Shown here: piece by piece, positions 1,910 to 51,629 of the stretch | How positions within the stretch are numbered: the first letter of the stretch is position 1 | Layout: each line of letters starts with the position of its first letter | DNA from: a bacterium M00.F.Ca.ET.205.01.1.1 | GTDB taxonomy: Bacteria; Pseudomonadota; Alphaproteobacteria; Rhizobiales; Rhizobiaceae | Assembly (NCBI GenBank): GCA_004791255.1 | Contig: SRUQ01000004.1 | Coordinates: forward strand, 324,031 to 388,030 | Reading direction: 5' to 3' | DNA length: 64,000 bases | Notes under the pieces: generated by a model | Databases searched by the model: none | The model's input: only the letters and a program-made list of their open reading frames with translations | Told to the model about the DNA's origin: nothing | Program-made: the position numbers and the translations under genes

Positions 1910-3055
1910 ATGAGCAGTGTGGAATTGCGCAAGGTCGACAAGCACTACGCCGGCTATCATGCCCTGAAGGCGATCGACCTGGAGATCGAAAAGGGCGAGT
2001 TCGTCGTCATGGTCGGGCCATCCGGCTGCGGCAAGTCGACATTGCTGAAGACCATCGCCGGGCTTGAGACGATCAACTCCGGCCAGGTGATGATCAACGG
2101 CCGCGATGTCACCGAGGAAGAGCCCGGCGACCGCGGCATCGCCATGGTCTTCCAGTCCTACGCGCTCTACCCGCATATGACGGTCGCCGAGAACATGGGC
2201 TTCGGCTTGCGGATGGCGAACAGGCCGAAGGCCGAGATCGATGCCGCCGTCAAACGCGCCGCGCAGATCCTGCGCCTGGAGGAGCAGCTCGACAAGCGTC
2301 CGAAGCAATTGTCGGGCGGGCAGCGCCAGCGCGTCGCGATCGGCCGCGCCATCACCCGCTCGCCCGAGGTTTTCCTGTTCGACGAACCGCTGTCGAACCT
2401 CGACGCCGCCTTGCGCACCCAGATGCGGGTCGAGCTTTCGAGCCTGCACGGACAGCTCGGATCGACCATGATCTATGTCACGCACGACCAGGTCGAGGCG
2501 ATGACAATGGCCGACAGGATCGTGGTCCTCAACAAAGGCCGGATCGAGCAGGTCGGCTCCCCGCTGGAGCTCTACGCCAACCCCGCGAACATCTTCGTCG
2601 CCGGCTTCCTCGGCGCGCCCCGCATGAACTTCATCGAAGCGAAAGTGGTGAGCGCCGATGCCTCAGGCGTCTCGGTGGCGGCGGCCGGCCTCCCGGCAAT
2701 CACCCTGGGCGACATCGATGCCAGCGGCGTTTCGGCCGGCGACGCCGTGACTGTCGGTATCAGGCCGGAGGCGCTGCACCTGGTCGAACGGACCGAGAGC
2801 GGGACGCCGGCCTTCTCCGGCCAGGTCCGGCTTGTCGAGCAACTGGGGCATGAAACCGTTCTCTATGTCGACGCCTCGCCGCTTCAGGCGACGAATTCCG
2901 ACAGCGGCACCGGCAATTTCACGCTTCAGCTCAACAAGGTTTCGGCGATCGGCGTCGGCGCCAAATTACAGGTCGGCTTCGAAACCGGCGACGCCTACCT
3001 CTTCGGACCCGATGGCCGCACGCTTACGCCAAGAAAACCCGTCGCCTCAACCTGA
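1910..3055 (+). CDS. Sugar ABC transporter ATP-binding protein (UgpC/MsmK type)
   Basis: Cytoplasmic ATPase powering the sugar importer (381 aa). Walker A is GPSGCGKST at 36-44, the signature is LSGGQRQR, and Walker B is FLFDEPLSNLD with a downstream switch His in VTHDQ. The C-terminal third is the TOBE-type regulatory domain of the CUT1 class. An upstream in-frame start at 1805 would add 35 unrelated residues overlapping the permease gene, so the ATG at 1910, where the conserved protein begins, is chosen. The beta-galactosidase gene follows after 27 bases. Confidence 0.93.
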   Translation: MSSVELRKVDKHYAGYHALKAIDLEIEKGEFVVMVGPSGCGKSTLLKTIAGLETINSGQVMINGRDVTEEEPGDRGIAMVFQSYALYPHMTVAENMGFGLRMANRPKAEIDAAVKRAAQILRLEEQLDKRPKQLSGGQRQRVAIGRAITRSPEVFLFDEPLSNLDAALRTQMRVELSSLHGQLGSTMIYVTHDQVEAMTMADRIVVLNKGRIEQVGSPLELYANPANIFVAGFLGAPRMNFIEAKVVSADASGVSVAAAGLPAITLGDIDASGVSAGDAVTVGIRPEALHLVERTESGTPAFSGQVRLVEQLGHETVLYVDASPLQATNSDSGTGNFTLQLNKVSAIGVGAKLQVGFETGDAYLFGPDGRTLTPRKPVAST

Positions 3056-3082
3056 ACCCCGAATTTCGAAAGTCCCATACGC

Positions 3083-5221
3083 ATGCAACGCAAGAAGCCC
3101 GCCCCGCTATCCGTCTGGCGGCCGCTTAATCTCGACCGCTTTCTGCTCGGAGCACCGCACTATCCCGAACACGTCGACGAAAGCGGCTGGCGGCGCGACG
3201 CCGAACGGATGGCGGCCGCCGGTGTCAACACCGTACGCATGGCAGAGTTCGCCTGGCACATTTTTGAACCCCGCGAAGGCAAGTTCGAGTTCGGCCTGTT
3301 CGATCGCGCGATCGAAAGTCTCGGCGAGGCGGGCATCGACACGATCATGTGCACGCCGACGGCGACCCCTCCCCGCTGGCTCACCGCCAACTATCCCGAG
3401 GTGCTGCGCGTCGACATAAACGGCCGGGCTGCGGCCCACGGCTCCCGCCAGCATGCCGACACCACAAGCCCGGTGTTCCGCGCCCACAGCCGCCGCATCA
3501 CCCGCGCCATGGCCGAGCACTATCGGGACAATCCGCGTGTGATCGGCTGGCAGACCGACAACGAGCTCAACACCACCGTGTCGGAATCGTTCGCGCCCTC
3601 GACGCGGCTTGAGTTCCAGAAGTATCTGCAGAGGACCTACGGCAGCATCGAGGCGCTGAACTTCGCCTGGGGCGGACACTTCTGGGCAACGGCCTATGGC
3701 GACTTCACGCAGATCGACCTGCCAAGACCACTCATGCCGTCCTATCCGAGCCCCGGTCAGGTGCAAGACTACCACCGCTTTCTGGCCGCAGCGACCGCCG
3801 CATTCCAACATGACCAGGTCGAAATCCTCCGCGCCGCCAATGCGGACTGGTTCGTCTTCCACAATCTTGGCCAGTTGGTAGACATCGACTTCCGCGGCCA
3901 GTTCGGACAGGATCTCGATTTCATCGGTTTCGACATCTACCCGATGCTCTATGACGAGATGCGCCGGACCGGTGGCCATGCGGCAACCCAGGCGCTGCAT
4001 CTCGACATCTGCCGCGCCTATTCCGGCAACTTCATCGTGCCGGAACAGGCCGCTGGCCTTGGCAGCCAGCCGGGCTTTTCGACCATGACGCCGGAACCCG
4101 GCGAGATGCGCCGCATGGCGATGACCTCGGTCGCTCGCGGCGCCGACGGCGTCATGTTCTTCCGCTGGCGCCCGGCGCATTTCGGCGCCGAGATCTATTG
4201 GATGGGCGTCATCGATCATGACGACGTGCCGCGCCGCCGTTACGACGAGGCAAGCCGTTTCTTCCACGAGATCGCTGCCATCAAGGACAAGCTCCTCGGC
4301 ACGGTGGTGCGCATGGATCTCGGCATTGCCGGCGCCGATTTCGACAACCAGGAAGCCTACAAGACCTATCCGATCGGCCTTCCCAGCCCGCTTGAGGACG
4401 CGACGCTGCTTCACCGCCATTGCTACGGCAAGGGCATCGCCTGCGGGTTCATTCATCCGGAGGACGACCTTTCGCGGCTGAAGGCGCTCTATGTCCCGCA
4501 TTGGGTGATGTGGAAGGATGAATGGAACGAGGCGGTCGAGACGTTCGTGCGCAACGGCGGCACGCTGATCCTGTCGGCGATGAGCGGCACCAGGGATGAG
4601 AACAACCACATCATCCGCGACCTGGCGCCCGGCCGCGCCCTTTCGGCATTGAGCGGCGTCAAGGTGGTGGAGTTCGGCCGCGTCGTTGCCGAAGGCGGCA
4701 GCGGCCTCTTCCCGCTGTTTCGCCCGGCCGCCATGGGCAGCTATTCACCGTCGCCGCTGCCGGCCTCGTCGGCCGAGCGCAAATATCACTTCACCCTTGG
4801 CAATGAGGAGTTCCAGGCAGCGCATCTCTACGAACTGCTCGAGATCGCGCCCGATACCGAGGTGCTGGGCGTCTGGTCCAACCGCTTCGCCGCCGGTTCG
4901 CCCGCGATCACGGCCCGCCAGGTCGGCAAGGGCCGCGTCGTCTATGTCGGCACCTATCTCACGCCGCAACTGGCCGAGAAACTTGCCGATGTCGTGCTGG
5001 CCAAAGCCGGGATCGAGCCTTTGCTTCCAGAACTGCCGCGCGGAATAGAGGTGTCCATCCGGCAGGCCGACGATCGCCGGCTGATGTTCATTCTGAACAC
5101 GACGGAGCTTCCGGTTGCCGTCCCTGGCGTACCCAAGGGCAGCGACCTGCTGACGGACGGTCCGGTTGCCGGCACGTTGCAACTGGGAGCCTATGGCTGC
5201 GCGGTGGTGTTGCTCGACTGA
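3083..5221 (+). CDS. Beta-galactosidase, glycoside hydrolase family 42
   Basis: Cytoplasmic retaining glycosidase, 712 aa, normal length for GH42. The family acid/base glutamate is in WQTDNELN (Glu161), and the likely nucleophile is Glu321 in FIVPEQAAGL. The central GATase-like trimerisation domain and a small C-terminal beta domain follow. It has no signal peptide, so it should act on galactosides after uptake. It is the last gene of the transporter operon, an arrangement recalling the Agrobacterium lac operon (transporter plus beta-galactosidase). The true substrate could also be a plant galactoside or galactan fragment. Confidence 0.92.
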   Translation: MQRKKPAPLSVWRPLNLDRFLLGAPHYPEHVDESGWRRDAERMAAAGVNTVRMAEFAWHIFEPREGKFEFGLFDRAIESLGEAGIDTIMCTPTATPPRWLTANYPEVLRVDINGRAAAHGSRQHADTTSPVFRAHSRRITRAMAEHYRDNPRVIGWQTDNELNTTVSESFAPSTRLEFQKYLQRTYGSIEALNFAWGGHFWATAYGDFTQIDLPRPLMPSYPSPGQVQDYHRFLAAATAAFQHDQVEILRAANADWFVFHNLGQLVDIDFRGQFGQDLDFIGFDIYPMLYDEMRRTGGHAATQALHLDICRAYSGNFIVPEQAAGLGSQPGFSTMTPEPGEMRRMAMTSVARGADGVMFFRWRPAHFGAEIYWMGVIDHDDVPRRRYDEASRFFHEIAAIKDKLLGTVVRMDLGIAGADFDNQEAYKTYPIGLPSPLEDATLLHRHCYGKGIACGFIHPEDDLSRLKALYVPHWVMWKDEWNEAVETFVRNGGTLILSAMSGTRDENNHIIRDLAPGRALSALSGVKVVEFGRVVAEGGSGLFPLFRPAAMGSYSPSPLPASSAERKYHFTLGNEEFQAAHLYELLEIAPDTEVLGVWSNRFAAGSPAITARQVGKGRVVYVGTYLTPQLAEKLADVVLAKAGIEPLLPELPRGIEVSIRQADDRRLMFILNTTELPVAVPGVPKGSDLLTDGPVAGTLQLGAYGCAVVLLD

Positions 5222-32435: not shown

Positions 32436-32966
32436 TCAGGCCTGCGGCGAGACGGTCATGGTGCCGAAGTCCGACGATCCGTCGGTGTGTTCGGTCGCCA
32501 GCAGGTCGCCCGTGATTTCGATCTGGCCGAAATCGTCGCCTGAAATCGGGGAGAAGCTGCCGGTCGGCCCGAATGACACCGAGGGGAATACCCCATGCAC
32601 GGTGTTGCCGACATTGTTGTCACCGACGAATTCGAGCGCGCCGGTGATCGTCGATACCGACATGATGCTCAAGACTTCGTCGGAGCCGGATGTCTCGACT
32701 TCCGACATGAACATCATGGCGAGGTTCGGCGCGGTGATCTCGTCGAGCACGATGCGGATCTGCACCGCCTGGTTGTTGTACTGGGTGAAATCGGTTTTCT
32801 TCGAGCCGCCGCGCGTCTTCTTGTGTTCGAGCTTGTCGACGGAGGGCGTCAGCTCGCACTCGACGATGTTGCCGAGGTCACGCTGGACGCCGCCGGTCGG
32901 CGTCCACAGGCACTTGCCGGTGCCCTGGAAATAGTTGGTGGTGCTGGGAGAAGCAACCAGAGGCAT
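32436..32966 (-). CDS. Major tail tube protein
   Basis: 176 aa, all-beta, with the pattern of phage tail-tube proteins (MPLVASPSTTNYFQGTGKC; LDEITAPNLAMMFMSE; GDLLATEHTDGSSDFGTM). It lies between the tail-terminator-like gene and the chaperone. It forms the stacked rings of the tail shaft. ATG at 32966, 16 bases after the preceding gene. Confidence 0.8.
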   Translation of the reverse strand: MPLVASPSTTNYFQGTGKCLWTPTGGVQRDLGNIVECELTPSVDKLEHKKTRGGSKKTDFTQYNNQAVQIRIVLDEITAPNLAMMFMSEVETSGSDEVLSIMSVSTITGALEFVGDNNVGNTVHGVFPSVSFGPTGSFSPISGDDFGQIEITGDLLATEHTDGSSDFGTMTVSPQA

Positions 32967-32982
32967 GATCGTTTCCTTTCGG

Positions 32983-33435
32983 TCAGACGGCGAGAGAGCC
33001 GGGTTTCATGAGGTAGGTGAAGGTGAAGCCGACGCCGATGCCGCCCTCCATGGAGCGACCGCGTTCCGTCGCGGTGTTCGATCCTTCGATGTCGATCGCC
33101 ACCTTATTGATGGTGAGATTGAGCAAAGCGTCGTCCATCATCACCGCGTCGATCAATTTTGCGCGCAGCAGATTGAGCTTCGTTCCGACTTCCGTAGCAC
33201 TGGCTTCAAGCCTGAATTGCACCTCCGGCATCATTGCCATATGCACCGGAGAAGGCGGCTGACCGGGGCGCCGGGGAGGAACCGCGCCGACCGACTCCTC
33301 GCGGCCGTCGAACAGGATGACGGCCGGCAGGTTCGAGCCCGACACGTCGGTCTCGTTGCGGCGCAGGCTTAGCGACGTGTCGATGGATCCGGCAACGATC
33401 AGCAGCCGGGCAAGGATGGCTTCGCGCGGGTCCAT
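32983..33435 (-). CDS. Tail terminator-like protein
   Basis: 150 aa (MDPREAILARLLIVAGSIDT; LPAVILFDGREE; MPEVQFRLEASATEVGTKLN). The opening helix, a strand with an FDG turn, and position right before the tail tube fit a gpU-like tail terminator/minor tail protein. Its start overlaps the preceding stop (TAATG). Confidence 0.7.
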   Translation of the reverse strand: MDPREAILARLLIVAGSIDTSLSLRRNETDVSGSNLPAVILFDGREESVGAVPPRRPGQPPSPVHMAMMPEVQFRLEASATEVGTKLNLLRAKLIDAVMMDDALLNLTINKVAIDIEGSNTATERGRSMEGGIGVGFTFTYLMKPGSLAV

Positions 33436-33779
33436 TATTTCTCCGACAGCAGCAGCCGCAACTCGCCGCCGGGCTCGCCGGTCGGCGCCGGCAGCGGCTC
33501 GTGGTTGATGATCTTCCAGTCCTTGCCGTTGAGCGTCAGCACCATGCCGTCGACATCGTCAGCCGAGATGCCCTTTTCGACCATCTCCGAAACGCGCACC
33601 GTTGCCGCCGGCCCGATAGTGGCGACGTCGACGCCCTTGAATCCGACCAATTGGCCCGATGTCTTGTCCATAGCGCGGAGACCGATCGGCGTGCCGGTCG
33701 TATCGTCGATCGTCAACACCGCATCGACCGCGATCGGGCCGGCGTAGAGCGCGTCGTAATGGATATCCCATGTGCTCAT
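33435..33779 (-). CDS. Head-tail connector/adaptor-like protein
   Basis: 114 aa from MSTWDIHYDALYAGPIAVDA. The length, beta-rich nature (AVLTIDDTTG; LTLNGKDWKIINHEPLP) and place between the head and tail genes fit an FII-like head-tail connector. The ATG at 33779 overlaps the FkbM gene stop (TGATG); the longer frame from 34187 is inside that gene. Confidence 0.68.
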   Translation of the reverse strand: MSTWDIHYDALYAGPIAVDAVLTIDDTTGTPIGLRAMDKTSGQLVGFKGVDVATIGPAATVRVSEMVEKGISADDVDGMVLTLNGKDWKIINHEPLPAPTGEPGGELRLLLSEK

Positions 33780-34438
33780 CAGGCGCCCCAGATCGCTGCC
33801 TGGTCGGCGACGCGGACGAAGATCATGTTGGAGCCGCACCAGGAGTGCAGGCAGAAACCCTTGGCCGCCATCAGCGCGGCAAGTTCGTGGCTGGTGTCGC
33901 CGGCGCCGCAATCGGCCTCGGCGATGACCAATTTTGGCGCGCTTGCGCCGAAATCCGCTCCGGCCAGCACGTCGATATCGAGGCCTTCGATGTCGATCGA
34001 CAGAAGGTCCGGCCAGATGCCGCCGGCGTGATGGGTGACGATCTGGTTGAGCGTCATCACGGGCAGTTCGACGCTGCGCACGATGCCGAGCGTGGCGGCG
34101 GTGGCGACGTCGAAGGTGAAGCGGCCGGGATCGGCGGCGACATGGTGGAAAGTCAGCCGCCCGACAAAGGGCGCCACGCCGACGCACAGATTGACGTCAT
34201 CGGGCCGCGCCTTGATGAACAGGGCAAACTGCGCCTCGTTCGGCTCGACATTGATGCCGCGCGAGCCGCGCTCATAAAGCAGCGCCGTATTCGAAAGATC
34301 GAACGGATGATAGGCGCCGACGTCCAGATAGGACGGCTTTTCGATGCCCAGCCGCTTGAAGATGTTGAGCACGGCAAGATCGTCGCCATGCTGCGCATAG
34401 GAGCGGTCGCCGAACCATTGATCGCGGTGGCCGGTCAC
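33779..34438 (-). CDS. FkbM-family methyltransferase
   Basis: 219 aa SAM-dependent methyltransferase. Motif I is YLDVGAYHPF, then INVEPNEAQF, LNQIVTHH, and the FkbM signature LLSIDIEGLDIDVLAG with IAEADC. Members commonly O-methylate sugars. The start is GTG at 34438, overlapping the preceding stop by four bases (GTGA); the upstream reading to 34537 runs inside the neighbour. Together with the 935-residue fusion it suggests glycan methylation linked to the virion or the host envelope. Confidence 0.85.
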   Translation of the reverse strand: MTGHRDQWFGDRSYAQHGDDLAVLNIFKRLGIEKPSYLDVGAYHPFDLSNTALLYERGSRGINVEPNEAQFALFIKARPDDVNLCVGVAPFVGRLTFHHVAADPGRFTFDVATAATLGIVRSVELPVMTLNQIVTHHAGGIWPDLLSIDIEGLDIDVLAGADFGASAPKLVIAEADCGAGDTSHELAALMAAKGFCLHSWCGSNMIFVRVADQAAIWGA

Positions 34439-34848
34439 AGTTTCGCGTCCATCTCGATCGTGTCGGTGTCGGCGTTGTAGTAAACATGGGCGGCGAGGCC
34501 AGTCTCGATCAGCTTCATCGCCACGGGCGCAAAACACGCCAGCGTCTGCTTGGCCTTTTCATCCATCGGGCCGTTGGCAATGAAGGTCACCGACTTCCCT
34601 TCGATATCGGCGCTGAAGTCGATTTCCACGCCACGCTCCGGCATAGCCAGGAGCATGTTTCGCACCATCTCTTCCGCTTGAACCGCGTCGAAGAGGTTGG
34701 TGCCGGAAGGCTCAGCCTTCATCGGCCCGAACGGACTGTTTTCATTGAAGGTCGCCTTGAAGCTGATGCCGCCGTCCGGATTGAAGTTCTCCGGCAGGCG
34801 CCAGCAGAGGAAACGACTGACCATGTGCTTGATCTGGGCTTCGGTCAC
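34435..34848 (-). CDS. Hypothetical phage head-region protein
   Basis: 137 aa (MTEAQIKHMVSRFLCWRLPE; AEEMVRNMLLAMPERGVEID; CFAPVAMKLIETGLAAHVYY). Alpha-beta, soluble. It sits between two glycan-type enzymes and overlaps both neighbours by four bases. A similar small protein is common in alphaproteobacterial phages, so it may be unrelated to the enzymes. Function unknown. Confidence 0.7.
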   Translation of the reverse strand: MTEAQIKHMVSRFLCWRLPENFNPDGGISFKATFNENSPFGPMKAEPSGTNLFDAVQAEEMVRNMLLAMPERGVEIDFSADIEGKSVTFIANGPMDEKAKQTLACFAPVAMKLIETGLAAHVYYNADTDTIEMDAKL

Positions 34849-37652
34849 TTGGTCCCCTCCGCAATCGCCGTCTCGATCCAGTTGAAGTGGTCGCCGATCA
34901 CCCTTCCGTGGCCTTCGACATCAACCAGATCGGCATGGCTGGACTTGCCGGGATCACAGGCGGCGACATCCTCGAAGCCGGCGAAGTAGAGCGCGGCCTC
35001 AAGCGTGCCTTGCGACCAGATCGCCTGGTGACCATGGGCGAAGATGATGGCATGCATGGCGCCGCGCAGGTCCGCCGTCGGCCCCCACTTTCGGGTGAAG
35101 TTGAAGTAGTCCTGGTCGCCGCGGCGAAAAATGTTTTCGAGGCTCGGCACCGCGATGCGGATGACGCCGCCGGGTTTCAGAACACGCCGGCATTCGGCGA
35201 AGAAGGCGAGTGCCTTGATATAATCGACATGCTCGACGACATGCTCGGCATAGATGAAATCGGCGTGGCCGTCGGCAAACGGCAGCGGGCTGGTGATGTC
35301 GATCTCGGCATCAAAGTTCTGCCAGCCGTCGAGCCGATTGGTGCCGCAGCCGAAGTTGAGTTTTATGGCCGGCACGTCAGGCACCGCCGGGGCTTCAACC
35401 TCGACCGGCGGTGGCGGCATCGCTGCCTCAACGAATGCATCGAACGCTTCCGGCGGGCAGTGCGTGATCCAGTCGAACCATGCGGCATTGTCGATCGTGA
35501 TCTGGCCCTTGTCGCCGCGCTCGGCCTTGACCGGCAGCAGCATGCGCAGATCCTCGCCGAGCAGGCCTGATATCGCCTGTTCGGGGAATGGGCGCGCCTT
35601 GCGGTTCCACCAGTCGTAACGCTCGATGAATTTAGTCTGCCAGAGATAGTCGACCGAAAAGAACATCAGGCCGGTCTCAGTCCAGCCTGTTTCCTGGCGC
35701 TTCGTTCCCATCACCGGGACGGATGCGGCCTTGATGCCGCGTTCGATCATCTCGCGGATGACGGGCAACACCGGCTGCTTGAACAGGCTGTCGCCCTCGA
35801 TGTGGGCGACGTAGTCATACTGCCCGTCGATCGCCATCTCCAGGCCCTTGCAGAAGGCCCTGCCCCAGCCGTCACGCCCGCCGCGCGCGAGATGCCCGAT
35901 GTTGTCGGGGAAAGCGTACTCGTCGACGCCATCTTCCACGATCGGCGGCGGCAACGGCGAGGCGCTGTCGATGAGCAGCAGGTCGACCGACCAGCCGTTC
36001 ACCGCCCGGTGCAGGCTCTGCCACTGGGCGACTAGACGCTGCTTCTCCGGCGTGTCTGTAAAGATGGTGCCGAACACCAGCACGCGAGGCTGCGCGCCAT
36101 GGGCGTTGGCGAAGGCCTCGACCTTCGGCAACGCCGCGCCGAGATCGATGGTCTTGTCGCATTTGTGGTGGCGGTCGAAGCATTCGCATGGCTTCACCGG
36201 CTCGATTGGCAGTGTCGGCGCCAGATGCGCACCGACCGCATTGGTGTAGCGGAAGCTTTCATTGCCGCCATAGACGACGATGTTCGGCGTGCCGACCGCC
36301 TGCGCCAGGATCGGCGCGAAGCCGGCATTGCCGAATACAAGAGCGGCCTCGGCGAACAGCCCGGCCAGCGCCTCGAAATCCGCCTCGCCGCGGTGCAGTT
36401 TCAGGTCGGCTTCCTGTTCCTCGCCGACGATCTCCTCGCCCTTCTGGGTCAGATCGCAGACCGAGACCACGAAGAACTTTTCGCGGATCGACCGATAGAG
36501 CGCCGCATAGGCCTCCGGATCCGGCGAGCGCGACGCACACGGCCAGGTGCCGTTGATGATGATCGGGCGATAGACCATCAGCGGCTTGCCGTTGATCGTC
36601 GCGAACTGCCTGCCATCGGCACGCACATCCATTGGATGGCCTAGCTTGTCCATCAGGCACCATGCGGCGATCCGCCAGTCATCCTTCACCGGCAGCGAAA
36701 AATCGGCCTTGTCCGGCACCGGCAGGCCGACCGAGCCGAACATGGCGGCCAGCAGCGTGCCGTGCCGCCTGGTTCGGGCGTGGTCATAGCCGATCTTCGT
36801 CTCGGAGGTGCCGCGCGCCACCGGCCAGGTTTTCGACATGTTGCCAGCGTCACGAATGCGCGGCGCCAAGCGATCGACCAACGTAACCTTGAGCCCATCG
36901 GCGATCAGGTCGTGATACATCGCCGTGTAATAGGTCTGAAGCTCGACATCACGGGTCTTCATCAGATCGCGCAACACGGCGCGCTGGTGCAGGCAGTCGC
37001 CCATGCCGTACATCGACAGCACGGTCAGCGGCTGCTTGATGGCAACGCGGTCGAGCATGGAAACAACGTCCTCAAAACTTGTTTTCGGCCAGACGTCGAT
37101 GACGCTGTCCGGATTGGCGTTAATGACCTCGACGCCGGCCGCGGCGACCGATGGCGCGATGGCCCGAAACTCGGCGGCGTGCAGATCGAACGATCCCTTG
37201 ACCAGCGGCCATGGATAGGCGGCGCCGTGATGGTGCCTGGTGCCGTCGCCGGCGAACCGGCCATCGACGCCGAGCAGGACGATGCGGCGGCAACCGAGAT
37301 GGATGGCGAGATTGATGGCGCCGGTGACGGAGGTTCGCGCCAGCGCCAGCTGCGTTGGCTTGCAGGCGATACCCTTGGCCGGATCGATCTTCAGCAACCG
37401 CTCGACATCGCGCGGACCGCCGCCCGATGTGGTGACGACCCGGCCGCCAAAACCTTCCTTTGCGCCAATCTCCGTCCACCACCTGTGATCGGCGAAGAAC
37501 AGGATGTCGGCTTGCGGCCAGGTGCGGTGCGCCGAGTTGATGGCGATGACCCGCCGCCCGATCAGAGGCGACAGGTCCAAATCCCTGACGGAAGCGCCGC
37601 CCGCGAGCACGAAGACCGTATCGCCTTCCCACTCGCGGACGATGGCTCCCAT
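34845..37652 (-). CDS. Fused glycosyltransferase/methyltransferase giant enzyme
   Basis: 935 aa with four apparent modules. Residues 1-210 form a Rossmann-like DUF115/MptE-like domain (VFVLAGGASVRDLDLSPL; RIVLLGVDGRF). Residues 210-510 look GT-B/GT9-like (VLSMYGMGDCLHQRAVL; LVFGNAGFAPILAQAVG). Residues 510-735 look GT-A-like (RDGWGRAFCKGLEMAIDG; YVAHIEGDSLF). Residues 745-935 are a class I methyltransferase (LNFGCGTNRLDGWQNFD; AEHVVEHVDYI). The ATG at 37652, seven bases after the capsid cement gene, is preferred to a frame from 37730. Its place in the head module suggests virion glycosylation; host-surface modification is the alternative. Confidence 0.8.
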   Translation of the reverse strand: MGAIVREWEGDTVFVLAGGASVRDLDLSPLIGRRVIAINSAHRTWPQADILFFADHRWWTEIGAKEGFGGRVVTTSGGGPRDVERLLKIDPAKGIACKPTQLALARTSVTGAINLAIHLGCRRIVLLGVDGRFAGDGTRHHHGAAYPWPLVKGSFDLHAAEFRAIAPSVAAAGVEVINANPDSVIDVWPKTSFEDVVSMLDRVAIKQPLTVLSMYGMGDCLHQRAVLRDLMKTRDVELQTYYTAMYHDLIADGLKVTLVDRLAPRIRDAGNMSKTWPVARGTSETKIGYDHARTRRHGTLLAAMFGSVGLPVPDKADFSLPVKDDWRIAAWCLMDKLGHPMDVRADGRQFATINGKPLMVYRPIIINGTWPCASRSPDPEAYAALYRSIREKFFVVSVCDLTQKGEEIVGEEQEADLKLHRGEADFEALAGLFAEAALVFGNAGFAPILAQAVGTPNIVVYGGNESFRYTNAVGAHLAPTLPIEPVKPCECFDRHHKCDKTIDLGAALPKVEAFANAHGAQPRVLVFGTIFTDTPEKQRLVAQWQSLHRAVNGWSVDLLLIDSASPLPPPIVEDGVDEYAFPDNIGHLARGGRDGWGRAFCKGLEMAIDGQYDYVAHIEGDSLFKQPVLPVIREMIERGIKAASVPVMGTKRQETGWTETGLMFFSVDYLWQTKFIERYDWWNRKARPFPEQAISGLLGEDLRMLLPVKAERGDKGQITIDNAAWFDWITHCPPEAFDAFVEAAMPPPPVEVEAPAVPDVPAIKLNFGCGTNRLDGWQNFDAEIDITSPLPFADGHADFIYAEHVVEHVDYIKALAFFAECRRVLKPGGVIRIAVPSLENIFRRGDQDYFNFTRKWGPTADLRGAMHAIIFAHGHQAIWSQGTLEAALYFAGFEDVAACDPGKSSHADLVDVEGHGRVIGDHFNWIETAIAEGTK

Positions 37653-37659
37653 GCAAGGT

Positions 37660-38013
37660 TCAGATCGTGAAGGCTGCCGACAGCCGCACCTTGCCGGTGG
37701 CGGACGGATTGTCGGCCGCTTCGACGGCAACGCCGATCAGCTTGTTGGAGCCAGCGGTGGTGGTGGCCTCGCCGGACGCGGCGACCCAGTAGATGCGCTG
37801 GCCGAAGGTCCAGGCCTGCGCAGAGACCTTGGGCAGTTCCCAGACGCCGATCAGCGCCAGTTCGCCATCGTCGCCGATGGCGATGTCGGTCTGCGCGACG
37901 CCGAACAGCGAGCCGGCGACGACGCCGTCGCCGGATGCCACATCGACGGCGCCGGTGACGTCTTCATTGGTCCAGGTAATGGTGTTACCCGGCTGGATAT
38001 AGTTCTTGGCCAT
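37660..38013 (-). CDS. Capsid decoration/cement protein (DUF2190-like)
   Basis: 117 aa beta-rich protein (MAKNYIQPGNTITWTNEDVT; AVDVASGDGVVAGSLFGVA; FGQRIYWVAASGEATTTAGS) matching DUF2190-type cement proteins that stabilise the capsid surface. It follows the protease-capsid gene by about 90 bases, longer than usual here, and contains no second gene in the gap. Confidence 0.83.
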   Translation of the reverse strand: MAKNYIQPGNTITWTNEDVTGAVDVASGDGVVAGSLFGVAQTDIAIGDDGELALIGVWELPKVSAQAWTFGQRIYWVAASGEATTTAGSNKLIGVAVEAADNPSATGKVRLSAAFTI

Positions 38014-38106
38014 TGCAGGCCTCCTTTGCGGAATGGAGTGAAGGGGAACGGGCGGCGACGCCGCCCGTCAGGACGGTGACGACGCGAAGCCGCGTCGCAC
38101 CGGGGA

Positions 38107-40170
38107 TCAGGCGCCGGTGGAGCGGTAGAGGCCGCGAAAGTCGAGCGCGTTGACGCCGGCATCAAGGCGGACCTTGAATTCGACGCCATCGACGTTCCAT
38201 CCATCCTTCTGCTCGAGCATCGGCTGGCTGACACCGTTGAGGTAGGACACCTCGATCGTGTCGGTCGCATTCGGATTGGCCGACAGATACCACTTGAGCG
38301 CCGAATCGGCGGACAGGCGGGCATCCGAGACGACTTCGGCAAGACCCTTGACGATGTTCGGATCCGTCGTGGTGCCCGGCGCGTACTGCGACGCCATCAG
38401 GGCATTCGCCTGACCGTCCAGCTCGACCGGCACCAGGAAATAGGCCGGGCGGATGTTGAGGCCGGCGGCGATGCTGTCGGGATCCTTCTGCAGCGCCATC
38501 TTGGACTTGCCGGCATCGAGAGCGGCCATGGTGATGGCGCCGGTGCCGATGTTCTTGTGGTTGGTGTGGAACAGCGCGATGCCGTCGCTCATCGCCGCGT
38601 TGGCGGTCAGCACGGCATAGACGAGGTTGCCGACGGTGCGGTTGGCGGCGCGGCCCATGCGCGACGGGATGCGGGTGAAGACGCTCATGTCGTCATTGAT
38701 GATCGCCTGGCGGGTGATGGCGAACATCTTGCCGTAGGTGGCAAGCTGGATGCTCTCGCCGCGGTCGCCGATCGTGGCATAGGTATATTCGCCGCCTTCC
38801 GGCACCTCGGCCAGCGACGGGAACAGGTTGAGATCGACGCGCTTGGCAGGCTTGAAATCGGACAGAGAGCCCTTGGCGGTCCATTTGGCATAGGTTTCCT
38901 CGGCTTCGAGGTAGCCCTTGAGCATCGACTTGTTGGCGACGTTGGCCAGCACCTCGACGAAGTCGCTGGTGGTGTGCTGGCCGCCGGCCATGACGAACTG
39001 GCGCATGCCGAGCGCGGCGCCGACCATCACCATCGGATCGCCGGTCACCAGCTTGATGCCGGCCTTGTCCAGGCTCATGCGGGCGATTTCGCGCAAGTTC
39101 ATCGACGAGAATTCATTGACCTCGCCGCCCTGCAATCCGGCCTTGGACATCAACGACTTCTCGACACCCTGGCGGAAGCGGTCGCGCTCGTCGGCGGTGA
39201 CGGTCGCAAAAGGCTTGGTGCCACCCTGGCCCTTGTCCGCATCACGGTCGGCGATGGCGTCGATGATAAGCGCGGTGGCCTTCTCGATGCTGCCGGCAGC
39301 GTCCTTGATCAGCTTCTCGGTCGCGGCGAAGTCCATTTTGGCGCGACCGGCCATCTGATAGATCTTCACCTTCACAGCATCACCCGTCATGGTGGCTTCG
39401 GTCGTTTCAGTGGTGTTTTCGACCTTTTCGGTCTTGTCGGTCTTTTCGGTTTCGGCGGTCTTGGTCTTATCCGCCGCAGTCGCATTGGTATTCGACATGG
39501 GTTTCTCCTTTGTGGATTGCGGCGCGGCTAGAACCGCCACCATCGGAAGGCTCGCGGCCTTGCGATCTGCTGACAGCGCGGCGAGATGCGCCGGCGCGTG
39601 TTTGTAGGTCTGGTAATCGAAGCTGGCGTCGGCGACGGCGGGATCACCCTCTTTGATTGCCGCCGTGGCGAAGCCCTTGGCGACGGCATCGTCGGGCGAC
39701 AGCCAGGTCTCGGCCTTCATCATGGCACGCACATCGGCGTCGGTCTGGCCGCTGCGGTCGGTATAGACCTGGGCGTAGACGCCGGTCAGGACATCGAGCG
39801 CGGCGGCATTCTTGCGATGCGCGTCGGCCGGCCCGAGCGTGATGCCAGCCGGCTCATGGATCATCATCAGGCTGCCGAGCGGCATGCTGACCGTGTCGCC
39901 GGCCATGGCGATCAGCGACGCCGCCGAGGCGGCGATGCCGTCGATGACGATGGCGACATTGCCGTCATGGCGCTTCAGAGAATTGTAGATGGCGGCGCCT
40001 TCGGTGGCGACGCCGCCGCCGGAATTGATCCGCACGGTGATGTCGCCATCCATCTCCGCCAGGGCATTGACGACGTCCGCAGAGGTGAAGCCGGCGCCTT
40101 CCCAGAAATCATGGAAGCCGACTGGCCCATAGAGGATCAGTTCGCCGTCAACGATCAGGCTATTGTCCAT
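38107..40170 (-). CDS. Prohead protease fused to major capsid protein
   Basis: 687 aa. Residues 1-190 are a ClpP-type serine protease: RINSGGGVATEGAAIYN, catalytic Ser82 in DGIAASAAS, His105 in MMIHEPAG. A charged Thr/Glu/Lys linker and scaffold-like helix (about 220-290) leads to a Mu/HK97-type capsid domain (about 320-687; NLFPSLAEVPEGGEY; FHTNHKNIGTG; PAYFLVPVELDGQ). One polypeptide thus carries protease, delta/scaffold region and shell protein, needing self-cleavage to free the capsid subunit. Confidence 0.88.
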   Translation of the reverse strand: MDNSLIVDGELILYGPVGFHDFWEGAGFTSADVVNALAEMDGDITVRINSGGGVATEGAAIYNSLKRHDGNVAIVIDGIAASAASLIAMAGDTVSMPLGSLMMIHEPAGITLGPADAHRKNAAALDVLTGVYAQVYTDRSGQTDADVRAMMKAETWLSPDDAVAKGFATAAIKEGDPAVADASFDYQTYKHAPAHLAALSADRKAASLPMVAVLAAPQSTKEKPMSNTNATAADKTKTAETEKTDKTEKVENTTETTEATMTGDAVKVKIYQMAGRAKMDFAATEKLIKDAAGSIEKATALIIDAIADRDADKGQGGTKPFATVTADERDRFRQGVEKSLMSKAGLQGGEVNEFSSMNLREIARMSLDKAGIKLVTGDPMVMVGAALGMRQFVMAGGQHTTSDFVEVLANVANKSMLKGYLEAEETYAKWTAKGSLSDFKPAKRVDLNLFPSLAEVPEGGEYTYATIGDRGESIQLATYGKMFAITRQAIINDDMSVFTRIPSRMGRAANRTVGNLVYAVLTANAAMSDGIALFHTNHKNIGTGAITMAALDAGKSKMALQKDPDSIAAGLNIRPAYFLVPVELDGQANALMASQYAPGTTTDPNIVKGLAEVVSDARLSADSALKWYLSANPNATDTIEVSYLNGVSQPMLEQKDGWNVDGVEFKVRLDAGVNALDFRGLYRSTGA

Positions 40171-40188
40171 TGCGATCTCCTGCGATCT

Positions 40189-41109
40189 TCAGGCTCTTGC
40201 CGCTGCGCGGACGCGCTGACCTGGCATTCCGGGAACATCGGGTACGTGGTAGCCACGCCTAACGACTTCCGATGGGCGGCCAATTGCGATTTCACGCGTC
40301 TTGACGATGACGCCGAGCGCCGAGTCGCCCGCTTTGTGGCCGTCGACCCACGTCCAGTAGGGAGCAAGCTCCCCATCCTCGACGTGCAGGCTTATGAGGC
40401 GCCAATGGCCGCGAACCTCATGTTCACGCTTGCCCACGCCGCCGCATCCGTCGCCGCCCTTTAGAACACCACGCATTTCACTGGTGTCAGGTATCTTCAG
40501 TGAAACAACGTTATGGGAATAGAATGGTCGGCCGATTTGCGCGCGTCGACGTAGCATCACACGGTCAGCCGGCGATGGAACGACCCTCCGAACCGAGACC
40601 ATTCTGGGCGAAGACATCGCGGACAGAAGGAAGACGCCGAAAACCATCACCTTTGCGAGGCGGTCAAAATCAAAATCGTTTATTGCTTCACCATACTTGG
40701 TGACTAAGCAGACGAATTCGTTCCCCGACCATGTATTCCAATGTATAGCGCCGACCGGGAGGGCAAGTTTTTGTTCGGTGACCAGCTGAAAACAAACCAG
40801 CAGCAGATCACCATCAACAACTTCTGGTGTCCAGCCGTAGCGGTATCCGCCGTGGTCGCATTCAAGCCAGAAGTCGGCTGATGGAAACCTTGCTATCCTC
40901 TCGACGTCGCGCAAATGAGCGTCGACATAGACCGCCAGCAATTGAGCGGTAGCCTCTTGGTCGAACACATAGCGATCGACCTTCCCCGACCATTTTTCCG
41001 ACCAGTGATCAGCATGATTCTCCGACGGAAGAGCCAGTTTGCTTCTGACCCTTTCGATGAGAGGATCCTTGGTTGGTCGAAGTTTAAGGAGACTGTCACA
41101 CAACAACAT
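40189..41109 (-). CDS. Hypothetical cargo gene between portal and protease
   Basis: 306 aa (MLLCDSLLKLRPTKDPLIER; FWLECDHGGYRYGWTPEVVDG). The C-terminal part carries VRGHWRLISLH, then a W-V-D-G-H-K-A-G-D segment and VIVKTREI, a His/Trp pattern I associate with a small unnamed phage/plasmid family. The ATG at 41109 has GGGGAG upstream; the longer frame from 41154 overlaps the portal gene. Base composition is less GC-rich than the neighbours, and portal-protease pairs are normally adjacent, so this is probably an insertion. Confidence 0.7.
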   Translation of the reverse strand: MLLCDSLLKLRPTKDPLIERVRSKLALPSENHADHWSEKWSGKVDRYVFDQEATAQLLAVYVDAHLRDVERIARFPSADFWLECDHGGYRYGWTPEVVDGDLLLVCFQLVTEQKLALPVGAIHWNTWSGNEFVCLVTKYGEAINDFDFDRLAKVMVFGVFLLSAMSSPRMVSVRRVVPSPADRVMLRRRAQIGRPFYSHNVVSLKIPDTSEMRGVLKGGDGCGGVGKREHEVRGHWRLISLHVEDGELAPYWTWVDGHKAGDSALGVIVKTREIAIGRPSEVVRRGYHVPDVPGMPGQRVRAAARA

Positions 41110-50098: not shown

Positions 50099-50437
50099 CT
50101 ACCCCATCCGCCCCATGCGCACGCGCGTCGTCACGCTGCGCAGATAGGGCCGTTCCTCCAGCACCGAGGTCGGCCGCCGCCACGACTGCCGGCCGGCGCG
50201 CTCGCGGTGATCTTCCTGGCGGAAATGCGACGCCATGCTGTTGATCGCCTGGAACACGCGCAATTGCTGCGCCGTCGCCCGCTCGAAACGGTGCGCCATG
50301 TAGAGATCGTAAAGCTCGGCGCCCCGTTTCATGCGCCGGTTGTTCCAGTCCTTGCGGCATTTGGGCGTGCAGAACTCGCGTCCCTGCGCCCTTGCGAAAG
50401 GCTCGCCGCATTCCAGGCAGGCGTCTAGACGCGCCAT
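50099..50437 (-). CDS. Small zinc-ribbon-like protein
   Basis: 112 aa from MARLDACLECGEPFARAQGR. C-x2-C at 7-10 with C-x3-C (FCTPKCRKDW) forms a short zinc ribbon like those that mark mis-translated or modified peptides; the rest is basic. The ATG at 50437 overlaps the methyltransferase stop (TGATG). It may bind nucleic acid; function unknown. Confidence 0.7.
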   Translation of the reverse strand: MARLDACLECGEPFARAQGREFCTPKCRKDWNNRRMKRGAELYDLYMAHRFERATAQQLRVFQAINSMASHFRQEDHRERAGRQSWRRPTSVLEERPYLRSVTTRVRMGRMG

Positions 50438-51468
50438 CAGGAAACGGGCTCCAGTTCGCCGATCGCCTCGCCATCGTGCAGCGGCGCATCCGTGGCGGCT
50501 TCCTGCGCCAGCGAAGCCAGCGCGTCGGCCGTCACTTCGGCTGTTTCGCGCGTCATGTTGATGCGCGCCTGGCGGAAATATTTGTCCTTCAGCTCGAAGC
50601 CGAGGCCGCGCCGGCCCGACTGCACCGCCGCCCACACTTCCGAGCCGATGCCGAGGAACGGCGTGAAGACGATGTCGCCGGGGTTGGACCAGAGATCGAT
50701 GCAGCGCTCGATGACGTCGAGCTGCAGCGGTGAGATATGCGCCTCGTCATTGGCGTCGCGGGCGGTCAGATATTGCAGCGTGCGCGTCTGGCGGATATCC
50801 ATCCACACCGGCGAGGCATAGCGCTGCCAGACCTCGATCGAGAACCAGTTGCGGCTGTCGGTGTCGGTGGTGAATTTCGCGAAATCCGGCCCCTCGCCCT
50901 CGCCGACGTAGCGCTTCAGCGCGCCGCTGACCGGCTCGGGATTGTCGCCCGGCTTCCGGAAGGCGACGATATAGTCGGCCAGCGCCTGGCCTGAAATGGT
51001 CGAGTCCTTCACCACCTGCTTGTGGTTGAGCCGGTGCGACTTCGACCGCGCCTGCGCCACCACCGCATCCTTCCAGATGCAGACCTCGGAATGGAACTGC
51101 CAGCCGGCATCCTGCCAGGCCCGGATCACCTCGCCGCGAAAATCGCGCATGCCGATGAAACCGTCGCGCCGCTTCGAGGTCGGCAGCTGCATCACATGCA
51201 CCGCCTGGACGCGGCCGGGCATGGTGATGCGCAGCATTTCCGAAATCAGGAACTGGTAGTGCCGCCAGAAGGTGACACCTTCCGAATTCGACAGGTCGCG
51301 GTCGGAGCCGGAGAATTTATACAGCCCCTCGAACGGCGGCGAGTGGATGCCGAAATGCACGCTGTCATCGGGAATGCCCCGGATCAGCTCGCAGCTGTCG
51401 CCCTGATAGATGGCGTAGCGGTCGGTGACATCCTGGTCGACGGCCTTGATGACGGGAAGCTTTTTCAT
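50437..51468 (-). CDS. DNA (N4/N6) methyltransferase
   Basis: 343 aa. Motif IV reads HSPPF (in HFGIHSPPFEGLYKFSG) and motif I is FTPFLGIGSE near the C-terminus, so the order IV then I is that of beta-class amino methyltransferases. The target is unknown. The ATG at 51468 lies eight bases after AGGTGG and overlaps the stop of the 54-residue gene, whereas a GTG at 51477 would sit inside that ribosome site. It may protect phage DNA or alter host control sites. Confidence 0.87.
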   Translation of the reverse strand: MKKLPVIKAVDQDVTDRYAIYQGDSCELIRGIPDDSVHFGIHSPPFEGLYKFSGSDRDLSNSEGVTFWRHYQFLISEMLRITMPGRVQAVHVMQLPTSKRRDGFIGMRDFRGEVIRAWQDAGWQFHSEVCIWKDAVVAQARSKSHRLNHKQVVKDSTISGQALADYIVAFRKPGDNPEPVSGALKRYVGEGEGPDFAKFTTDTDSRNWFSIEVWQRYASPVWMDIRQTRTLQYLTARDANDEAHISPLQLDVIERCIDLWSNPGDIVFTPFLGIGSEVWAAVQSGRRGLGFELKDKYFRQARINMTRETAEVTADALASLAQEAATDAPLHDGEAIGELEPVS

Positions 51469-51629
51469 GGCTTCCACCTAATTAAGCCGGATGCGCTGTC
51501 TACAGTGCAATCCAGCCCCGCCGCGGCGAGCGCTTTGACGACCAGTCTTACCTTCTCATGGAATTCAGCAATGGTCCCGCTTGGAACAGGGATCCGGATG
51601 CCAATATGGCAATCAATTTTATCTCTCAT
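51465..51629 (-). CDS. 54-residue phage protein
   Basis: MRDKIDCHIGIRIPVPSGTI, then a helix (AEFHEKVRLVVKALAAAGLD), ending RWKP. Start and stop overlap the helicase and methyltransferase genes by four bases each (ATGA), so it is translated between them. Function unknown; no known domain. Confidence 0.72.
   Translation of the reverse strand: MRDKIDCHIGIRIPVPSGTIAEFHEKVRLVVKALAAAGLDCTVDSASGLIRWKP

Follow-up and report, generated by a model that had tools for sequence, protein, structure and literature searches.

The 64,000-nucleotide stretch of DNA from a soil bacterium of the Rhizobiaceae analyzed here, hereafter the window (positions 324,031 to 388,030 of contig SRUQ01000004.1, assembly GCA_004791255.1), carries a Mesorhizobium-type prophage. 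Inside its virion-building genes, with the cement gene on one side and connector genes on the other, lies a gene for a protein of 935 amino acids (aa), P0001, that appears to unite four glycan-enzyme domains in a single chain. The features of this locus are listed below, starting with the P0001 gene and its domains, which are assigned from structure models and family models.

34845..37652, minus strand: P0001, four-domain glycan enzyme, 935 aa (open reading frame [ORF], translation, near full-length relatives, AlphaFold2 model)
37038..37652, minus strand: domain 1, residues 1-205, predicted Maf/DUF115-like glycosyltransferase (PHROG 4603, structure match 5mu5)
36102..37037, minus strand: domain 2, residues 206-517, predicted GT-B, GT9/heptosyltransferase-like, Cys/His motif at 489-500 (structure matches TibC, 3tov_B and WaaF)
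35418..36101, minus strand: domain 3, residues 518-745, predicted GT-A glycosyltransferase-like, EGD motif (structure matches 6p61_B, TarP and SpsA)
34848..35378, minus strand: domain 4, residues 759-935, predicted class I S-adenosylmethionine (SAM) methyltransferase, GCG motif (PF08241)
34435..34848, minus strand: 137-aa gene, GTG start, overlapping both neighbours (no family matches; poorly kept outside its own genome)
33779..34438, minus strand: FkbM-type methyltransferase, 219 aa, GTG start (PF05050, TIGR01444)
37660..38013, minus strand: capsid cement protein (PF09956, 107.6 bits; PHROG 122, head decoration)
38107..40170, minus strand: fusion of head maturation protease (ClpP) and major capsid protein (PHROG 133, 6.3e-177; PF25209, 187.1 bits)
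32436..33734, minus strand: putative head-tail connector/terminator genes and major tail protein (PF05354, weak; PHROG 807, 2e-21)

The P0001 reading frame runs on the minus strand from an ATG at 37652 to a stop at 34845 (935 codons). A longer frame from a TTG at 37730 would run into the cement gene, and the relatives of P0001 share its ATG start residue (e.g., MGTIAREW in locus L001), so that the ATG is preferred. These relatives, found in other phage contigs, are 64-73% identical over the best segment and match all or nearly all of the length. Together with the many invariant residues described below, they establish that P0001 is not a chance ORF. The sequence-only reading of this DNA had likewise placed a 935-residue protein between cement and connectors, and the ORF and the cement gene bear this out; on the connector side, the head-tail attachment match at 33435-33734 is weak (PF05354, 17.4 bits, under the cut-off of 26).

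The order of domains in P0001 is Maf/MptE-like, GT-B, GT-A and methyltransferase. The earlier description of a fusion of three glycosyltransferase-like parts with a methyltransferase thus stands in its composition, with three glycosyltransferase-like domains by structure and a SAM methyltransferase by Pfam, but its order had to be corrected, the Maf/MptE-like part coming first. The check by structure prediction that it had proposed does return glycan-enzyme folds. An AlphaFold2 model built from a 38-row alignment of natural relatives has a mean pLDDT of 86.8 and a pTM of 0.50, so the domains are modelled with confidence but their placement relative to each other is not; modelled separately, domain 1 reaches a pLDDT of 90.6 and a pTM of 0.90. 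The models were searched with Foldseek and the matches scored as VIA-align Z scores. The best match of domain 1 is the flagellin O-glycosyltransferase Maf (5mu5; Z 16.1, 184 residues, 3.4 A), above the sialyltransferases CstI (Z 12.4) and CstII (Z 12.1) and the MptE-type HPPK (Z 11.7), as expected of a Maf/DUF115 catalytic-domain fold. In sequence, PHROG 4603, named "alpha-2,3-sialyltransferase," matches residues 16-201 (9.2e-26). Residues 205-519 superpose on TibC (4rb4_K; Z 19.4, 2.7 A, 254 residues), with which a second GT9 enzyme ties (3tov_B, Z 19.3), followed by WaaF (1psw, Z 17.9) and WaaC (Z 16.9); domain 2 is thus predicted to have the GT-B fold of the GT9 family, and PHROG 6804 matches residues 356-503 (6.2e-21). 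Residues 520-735 match the GT-A enzymes 6p61_B (Z 16.0), TarP (Z 15.9) and SpsA (Z 15.1), and domain 3 combines this modelled fold with an acidic motif whose metal binding is predicted only. Domains 1-3 are, on these models, glycosyltransferase-like. Domain 4 is assigned to the class I SAM methyltransferases from Methyltransf_11 (PF08241), which covers residues 785-831 at 37.6 bits (cut-off 21.2), and from the presence of motif I.

In sequence searches against the PDB, the profile of the whole of P0001 found nine weak matches only, seven of them over the methyltransferase part and of methyltransferase type or hypothetical (E 0.012 to 0.6), the other two, to an etherase and to a hypothetical protein (E 0.84 and 0.86), lying in part of domain 2. 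Domain 1 gave 13 matches up to E 5, the best at E 0.11, including seven to CstII-type sialyltransferases (E 0.73 to 2.5) and others with unrelated names. At E 0.001, NCBIfam assigned no family to P0001.

In the alignment of relatives, invariant residues are spread over all four domains. Examples in domain 1 are G19, S21, N39, D130, H142 and N178. In domain 2, 24 of 25 aligned rows have each of C489, C/H491, C498 and K500, and only the second domain-2 copy of locus L028 departs. E619 and D621 of the EGD motif of domain 3 are invariant (27/27 rows), and the GCG of domain 4 (768-770) is kept in all 24 rows.

The P0001 gene is tightly embedded among its neighbours. Its ATG follows the cement stop after 7 bp, its stop and the GTG start of the 137-aa gene overlap (GTGA), and a further stop-start overlap joins the 137-aa gene to the FkbM gene, whose GTG start was picked from this overlap and from relatives. 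The small gene and the FkbM methyltransferase that the sequence-only reading had seen downstream are therefore both present, the FkbM protein passing its two family models (PF05050, 56.2 bits against a cut-off of 22.7; TIGR01444, 40.9 bits, over its cut-off). Promoter-like sites across 33300-40300 occur at chance level (1 found, 1.2 expected). Since the frames overlap or lie close together and promoter-like sites do not exceed chance, the three genes seem to belong integrally to the late head-to-tail operon, in which the portal, cement, ClpP-capsid fusion and major tail genes were named by Pfam and PHROGs. None of the three proteins contains a membrane-like segment (highest 19-residue hydropathy mean 1.57). 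Models of defence systems gave no match. The 137-aa gene has no match in Pfam, PHROGs or the defence-system models; among the loci searched, a partial match outside its own genome was found in a single prophage (L001, identical to L034), and it was dropped as a member of the module for this poor conservation.

Two scans of phage contigs yielded 9 and then 30 loci (seven of the latter among the former). A scan of genome contigs yielded two, both from Mesorhizobium and with the module flanked by phage capsid genes, and a scan with domain 1 yielded five, every one on contigs already found. Some loci are copies: L034 equals L001 over the gene (one prophage fetched twice), and over the module DNA compared L015, L016 and L027 are identical, as are L022 and L023, and L013 and L017 in their shared part. 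In all ten distinct loci with the four domains in one ORF (the window, L001, L002, L003, L004, L005, L011, L012, L024 and L035), an FkbM gene follows, incomplete at the contig end in L005 and L012. In L002 it is frame-broken (L002:9311-10041), be it a real feature or an assembly error.

Elsewhere the same parts are arranged differently. Domain 1 is separate and domains 2-3-4 are fused in L006 (which also has FkbM), L013, L014, L015 and L025; in L006 a 237-aa ORF (2919-3632) lies between the two. In L030 all domains are separate adjacent genes with another methyltransferase in between, and in L008 separate genes occur in the order 2, 3, radical SAM, FkbM, 4, domain 1 not being found in this locus. 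A permuted form with a domain-1-like C-terminus is present in L007, L018, L020-L023, L026 and L029; eight permuted C-termini compared with the domain-1 alignment by hhalign gave a probability of 93 (E 3.3e-7). Domains 2-3-4 are fused in L019, where domain 1 is not clear; L028 has two domain-2 copies and domain 3; domain 3 occurs without domains 1, 2 and 4 in L031 (at a contig start, FkbM next), L032 and L033; and L009 has domain 1 alone. That the parts recur fused, split and permuted suggests that they act jointly. A radical SAM/SPASM protein, which might modify the sugar, accompanies the module (L008:11597-12454; L013:9847-10707, also in L017; L027:15672-16529). A proposed link between the N-terminal extensions seen in permuted fusions such as L018 and L020 and the small head proteins beside domain 1 in phage D3 (orf6.5), L013 and L027 was rejected (hhalign probability about 1 or less).

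In most of the diverse phage contigs, genes for the capsid, a connector or a fibre lie next to the module. Capsid, portal, decoration or connector genes were recognized near it by homology in the window, L001-L006, L009, L011-L015, L024, L025 and L035, and by eye in L030, where Pfam is blank for the putative connector. The gene order downstream, from connector to major tail, is common to the window, L001, L003, L004, L009, L011, L024 and L035. The capsid types themselves differ, with the ClpP-capsid fusion in some loci and PHROG 29 major head proteins in L014 and L025, to which the capsid of L003 and L004 is similar by eye (compared with L014); the module therefore travels independently of any one capsid family. 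Between FkbM and the connector genes, long Gly/Ser/Thr-rich or fibre-like proteins are encoded in five of eight loci (L001, L006, L011, L024 and L035). Two such genes of L035 have tail-fibre type PHROG matches (1.9e-8 and 1.1e-10), and one gene each in L001 and L011 is homologous to an L035 gene of this type. A fibre-type gene lies upstream of the module in L008 (PHROG 2282, 3.5e-27), and fibre-like genes were seen by eye in L006, L024 and L028. In L028 a 1950-aa Gly-rich protein is encoded directly ahead of the domain2-domain2-domain3 protein, and a small nucleotide-sugar pathway (TylF, uridine diphosphate-sugar dehydrogenase, epimerase and C-methyltransferase; L028:12547-16231) follows the module. 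We also would like to point out a family of proteins of about 110 aa (L035:17736-18065) that recurs beside the module in six loci, the others being L001, L006, L011, L024 and L028.

Relatives were also sought in named phages. A tblastn search with P0001 returned 31 records, none covering more than 80% of the query; the matches are mostly to domain 1 (Caulobacter, Brevundimonas, Pseudomonas and others), with domain 2 matched in three records. A reduced set, consisting of Maf-like, GT9-like and methyltransferase genes, lies among virion genes in phages D3, PAJU2, Enterobacter Mulvp2 and Caulobacter CcrBL9. In Pseudomonas phage D3 the order is capsid, orf6.5, orf7 (domain 1), two connector genes, orf11, orf12 (a domain-2 relative, E 5e-29), orf13 (methyltransferase) and an HK97 gp10 family gene. 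In PAJU2 (ORF010-012; the methyltransferase name of ORF012 comes from the phage's second record) and Mulvp2, domain 1, domain 2 and the methyltransferase are adjacent and lie between head and tail genes. Eowyn has the same three genes adjacent. The depositors annotated the domain-1 relatives of PAJU2 (L055:3450-4019) and Eowyn (LR881104) as "structural protein." In CcrBL9, tail-fibre and endolysin genes enclose a domain-1 gene, three unnamed genes, and genes for a methyltransferase and a GT9 enzyme (PF01075); the latter shows no relation to domain 2 at E 0.1. The Pseudomonas GT9 gene occurs in 29 records and the domain-1 relative in 74; at least 23 of the 29 contain both, many of them near-copies of one phage type. 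No relatives of domain 3 or 4 were detected in D3, PAJU2 or P1.

Phage P1 encodes two tandem Maf-like paralogues, pmgO and pmgP, which match the domain-1 profile (E 1.2e-29 and 7.8e-11) and are followed by the Ser/Thr phosphatase gene ppp and the glycosyltransferase gene pmgQ (L051:5932-8490). The hdmA-D operon of P7, labelled head morphogenesis in its record, also contains a domain-1 relative. According to passages of PMC10695390, pmgO, pmgP and pmgQ are nonessential by CRISPR interference and in a cited deletion survey. We infer that this survey is PMC9024508, in which plaque formation was unimpaired in 24 of 29 knock-outs; its main text does not mention pmgO, pmgP or pmgQ by name. Dispensability of the P1 relatives fits decoration rather than assembly.

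Could the module instead be a bacterial locus for lipopolysaccharide (LPS) that a phage acquired? This was considered, and in the genomes sampled domains 2-4 were found together in the own genome only: 1 of 297 in a sample of the family (E 1e-10), where the matches in seven other genomes are confined to the methyltransferase end, and 1 of 385 in a sample of the class (E 1e-20), where one other genome has domain 3 at two places, one of which adjoins rhamnose-type sugar genes, and another has domain 4. The census is a rough one, as these whole-genome profile searches score two or three candidates per genome.

The host genome itself encodes HldE (by both domain models), HldD, WaaF and KdsB over the curated cut-offs, the full-length HldE model scoring 473 against a cut-off of 521. 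NeuB has no match in it (0/1), whereas the same model is positive in 9 of 14 control genomes. From the presence of HldE, HldD and KdsB, adenosine diphosphate (ADP)-heptose and cytidine monophosphate (CMP)-activated 3-deoxy-D-manno-oct-2-ulosonic acid (Kdo) are very likely available in the host, and NeuB-type nonulosonic acids, with NeuB unmatched, are not. Two Maf enzymes are reported in part of PMC11339370 to take Kdo as donor, one of them shown in E. coli to modify Ser/Thr of flagellin. The natural guess for the donors is thus Kdo and heptose.

Taken together, the four enzyme-type domains with their conserved residues, the coupling of the genes within a virion operon, the co-inherited gene set and the host genes of the ADP-heptose and CMP-Kdo pathways make it probable that the module is a cytoplasmic cassette, expressed late, by which proteins of the phage particle are glycosylated and methylated. 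Glycosyltransferase-like genes do lie in the virion operon, as would be expected of phage virion glycosylation. During lytic growth, the Maf-like domain would act in the cytoplasm and attach a CMP-activated keto sugar, most likely Kdo given that the host has no NeuB match, to Ser/Thr of a virion protein. The GT9-like domain would add an ADP-activated sugar, e.g., heptose, the GT-A domain would lengthen the chain, and the fused methyltransferase and the FkbM enzyme would O-methylate the glycan; the order of these steps is a guess. Likely acceptors would be abundant surface proteins (capsid, cement, major tail) or the fibre-like proteins encoded nearby; in the window, Ser/Thr content and tails single out none of the candidates. 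The one-chain fusion would couple the enzyme steps. The benefit may be a shield or altered adsorption rather than assembly, because the Maf-like relatives of P1 are dispensable for plaques. As a tentative extension, which we regard as possible but doubtful, a widespread undescribed phage system of Maf-like, GT9-like, GT-A and methyltransferase enzymes, united in a single polypeptide in P0001, may build a methyl-capped glycan of Kdo/heptose type from host LPS precursors directly on virion proteins; the virions of P1 and D3 would then be glycoproteins, a property overlooked through decades of study.

Several observations weigh against virion glycosylation. The glycan, its acceptor and the donors are predicted only. 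The MptE/DUF115-like domain claimed by the sequence-only reading holds as a fold, but in sequence the MptE-like model PF01973 gives 13.0 bits, short of the curated cut-off of 34.6, and neither Glyco_transf_9 (PF01075; Pfam, E 1) nor TibC (TIGR04414; NCBIfam, E 0.001) matches P0001. Because TibC ties with another GT9 enzyme and the LPS heptosyltransferases are close behind, domain 2 alone is no proof of a protein acceptor. The plain domain-1 hidden Markov model misses the permuted C-terminal segments, which profile-profile comparison alone finds, and one of seven permuted-class neighbours scanned (in L007, L018 and L020) has a named PHROG, head decoration in L020. With varied capsid types no conserved acceptor stands out, and fibre-like genes are missing from the FkbM-connector interval in three of the eight loci in which it can be viewed (the window, L003 and L004). 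The neighbours in Eowyn are unnamed on the stretch seen, save one Appr-1-p processing enzyme; none of the methyltransferases of D3, PAJU2, Eowyn and Mulvp2 is related to domain 4 (E 0.66 or more); the four P1 genes tested include no relative of domain 2; and pmgN, just ahead of pmgO, is essential by CRISPR interference, though not by deletion, in passages of PMC10695390. Note also that the heptose pathway check covered HldE and HldD.

The main rival is lysogenic conversion, in which the enzymes would alter not the virion but the host's LPS core or O-antigen, with effects on serotype or superinfection exclusion. The sequence-only reading had left both options side by side. The resemblance of domain 2 to WaaF and WaaC is almost as close as that to TibC, LPS synthesis uses ADP-heptose and CMP-Kdo as precursors and the host has WaaF, and an LPS-type glycosyltransferase is described in a rhizobial prophage in part of PMC5537653. 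Yet expression should be late, because the genes are coupled between capsid and connectors, where promoter-like sites do not exceed chance; the proteins have no membrane-like segment; domain 1 is matched best by a protein glycosyltransferase; and the relatives stay among virion genes in D3, PAJU2, Mulvp2 and CcrBL9. Virion-protein glycosylation is favoured since the virion-operon position recurs in unrelated phages and since protein O-glycosyltransferases are among the nearest structural matches of two domains (Maf, and TibC in a tie), and a change of the O-antigen or LPS is accordingly the less likely of the two and, in our judgement, unlikely. That Maf enzymes act on flagellin and that domain 1 matches 5mu5 also recommend a cassette glycosylating a host surface protein (flagellin, pilin) during infection. 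This would not account for a late position in the virion operon or for the company of virion genes in other phages, and effects on the host surface so late would be of little help, which makes it improbable.

The module moves among differing capsid types and positions, and the domain-1 relatives of P1 are dispensable in the laboratory, as would be expected of accessory cargo (a "moron") hopping among late-operon sites with no particle-related role. We give this little credence, since all four domains have invariant residues and the module is repeatedly inherited together with virion genes, both signs of selection for a joint function. Phage glycosyltransferases that modify DNA exist (cited in a passage of PMC12619734), but hypermodification of phage DNA is very unlikely, given a gene set that keeps company with virion genes and a three-gene module in which no base-hydroxymethylation gene was recognized. 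No DNA-base glucosyltransferase is among the matches listed (the best 50 per model), which does not exclude one.

Virion glycosylation by this cassette would differ from the known systems in several ways. Domain 1 shares the fold of the Maf flagellin O-glycosyltransferases (DUF115/MptE-like superfamily) as a 205-aa core, compared with a Maf chain of 632 residues, and its acceptor is presumably a virion protein instead of flagellin. Domain 2 shares the GT-B fold of TibC and the LPS heptosyltransferases but is fused to other enzymes; its Cys/His cluster, near the C-terminal end of the domain, lies roughly at what we take to be the position of the iron site of TibC. The TibC structures contain iron, per their PDB titles. 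D3, PAJU2, P1 and P7 all have domain-1 relatives, D3 and PAJU2 also domain-2 relatives and a methyltransferase, P1 two domain-1 relatives and a different glycosyltransferase, but as separate small genes, unlike the single chain of P0001. O-antigen conversion cassettes of the GtrABC type have a membrane flippase or a membrane-anchored transferase, a component that the three-gene module lacks (window genes elsewhere were only partly scanned). In mycobacteriophage virions, glycans occur on capsid and tail-tube proteins (Freeman 2023, as cited in part of PMC12619734). The hosts differ, and here a predicted Maf-like, GT9-like, GT-A and methyltransferase chain would do the work. The mycobacteriophages in question are reportedly Che8 and Corndog.

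As far as our literature search shows, which left subscription literature mostly outside, the enzyme set has not been described as a virion glycosylation system, nor have the reduced relatives in D3, PAJU2, Mulvp2 and jumbo phages or the Maf-like part in P1. The earlier suggestion of a new modification system thus survives for the enzyme set and its one-chain form, while the kind of modification is already known in mycobacteriophages and partial relatives exist in P1, D3 and PAJU2. If true, virion protein glycosylation would not be confined to mycobacteriophages but would occur also in phages that infect Alpha- and Gammaproteobacteria, P1 and D3 among them, through enzymes related to those of flagellin glycosylation and probably supplied by LPS precursors. 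It would bear on phage adsorption, stability and immune recognition, give the "putative morphogenetic" genes of P1 a role, and make the one-chain enzyme a natural case of linked glycosylation steps. The question is open to direct test in existing laboratory phages and knock-outs.

Elsewhere in the window, in the early region of the prophage, an ORF at 50437-51477 resembles a DNA methyltransferase by eye.

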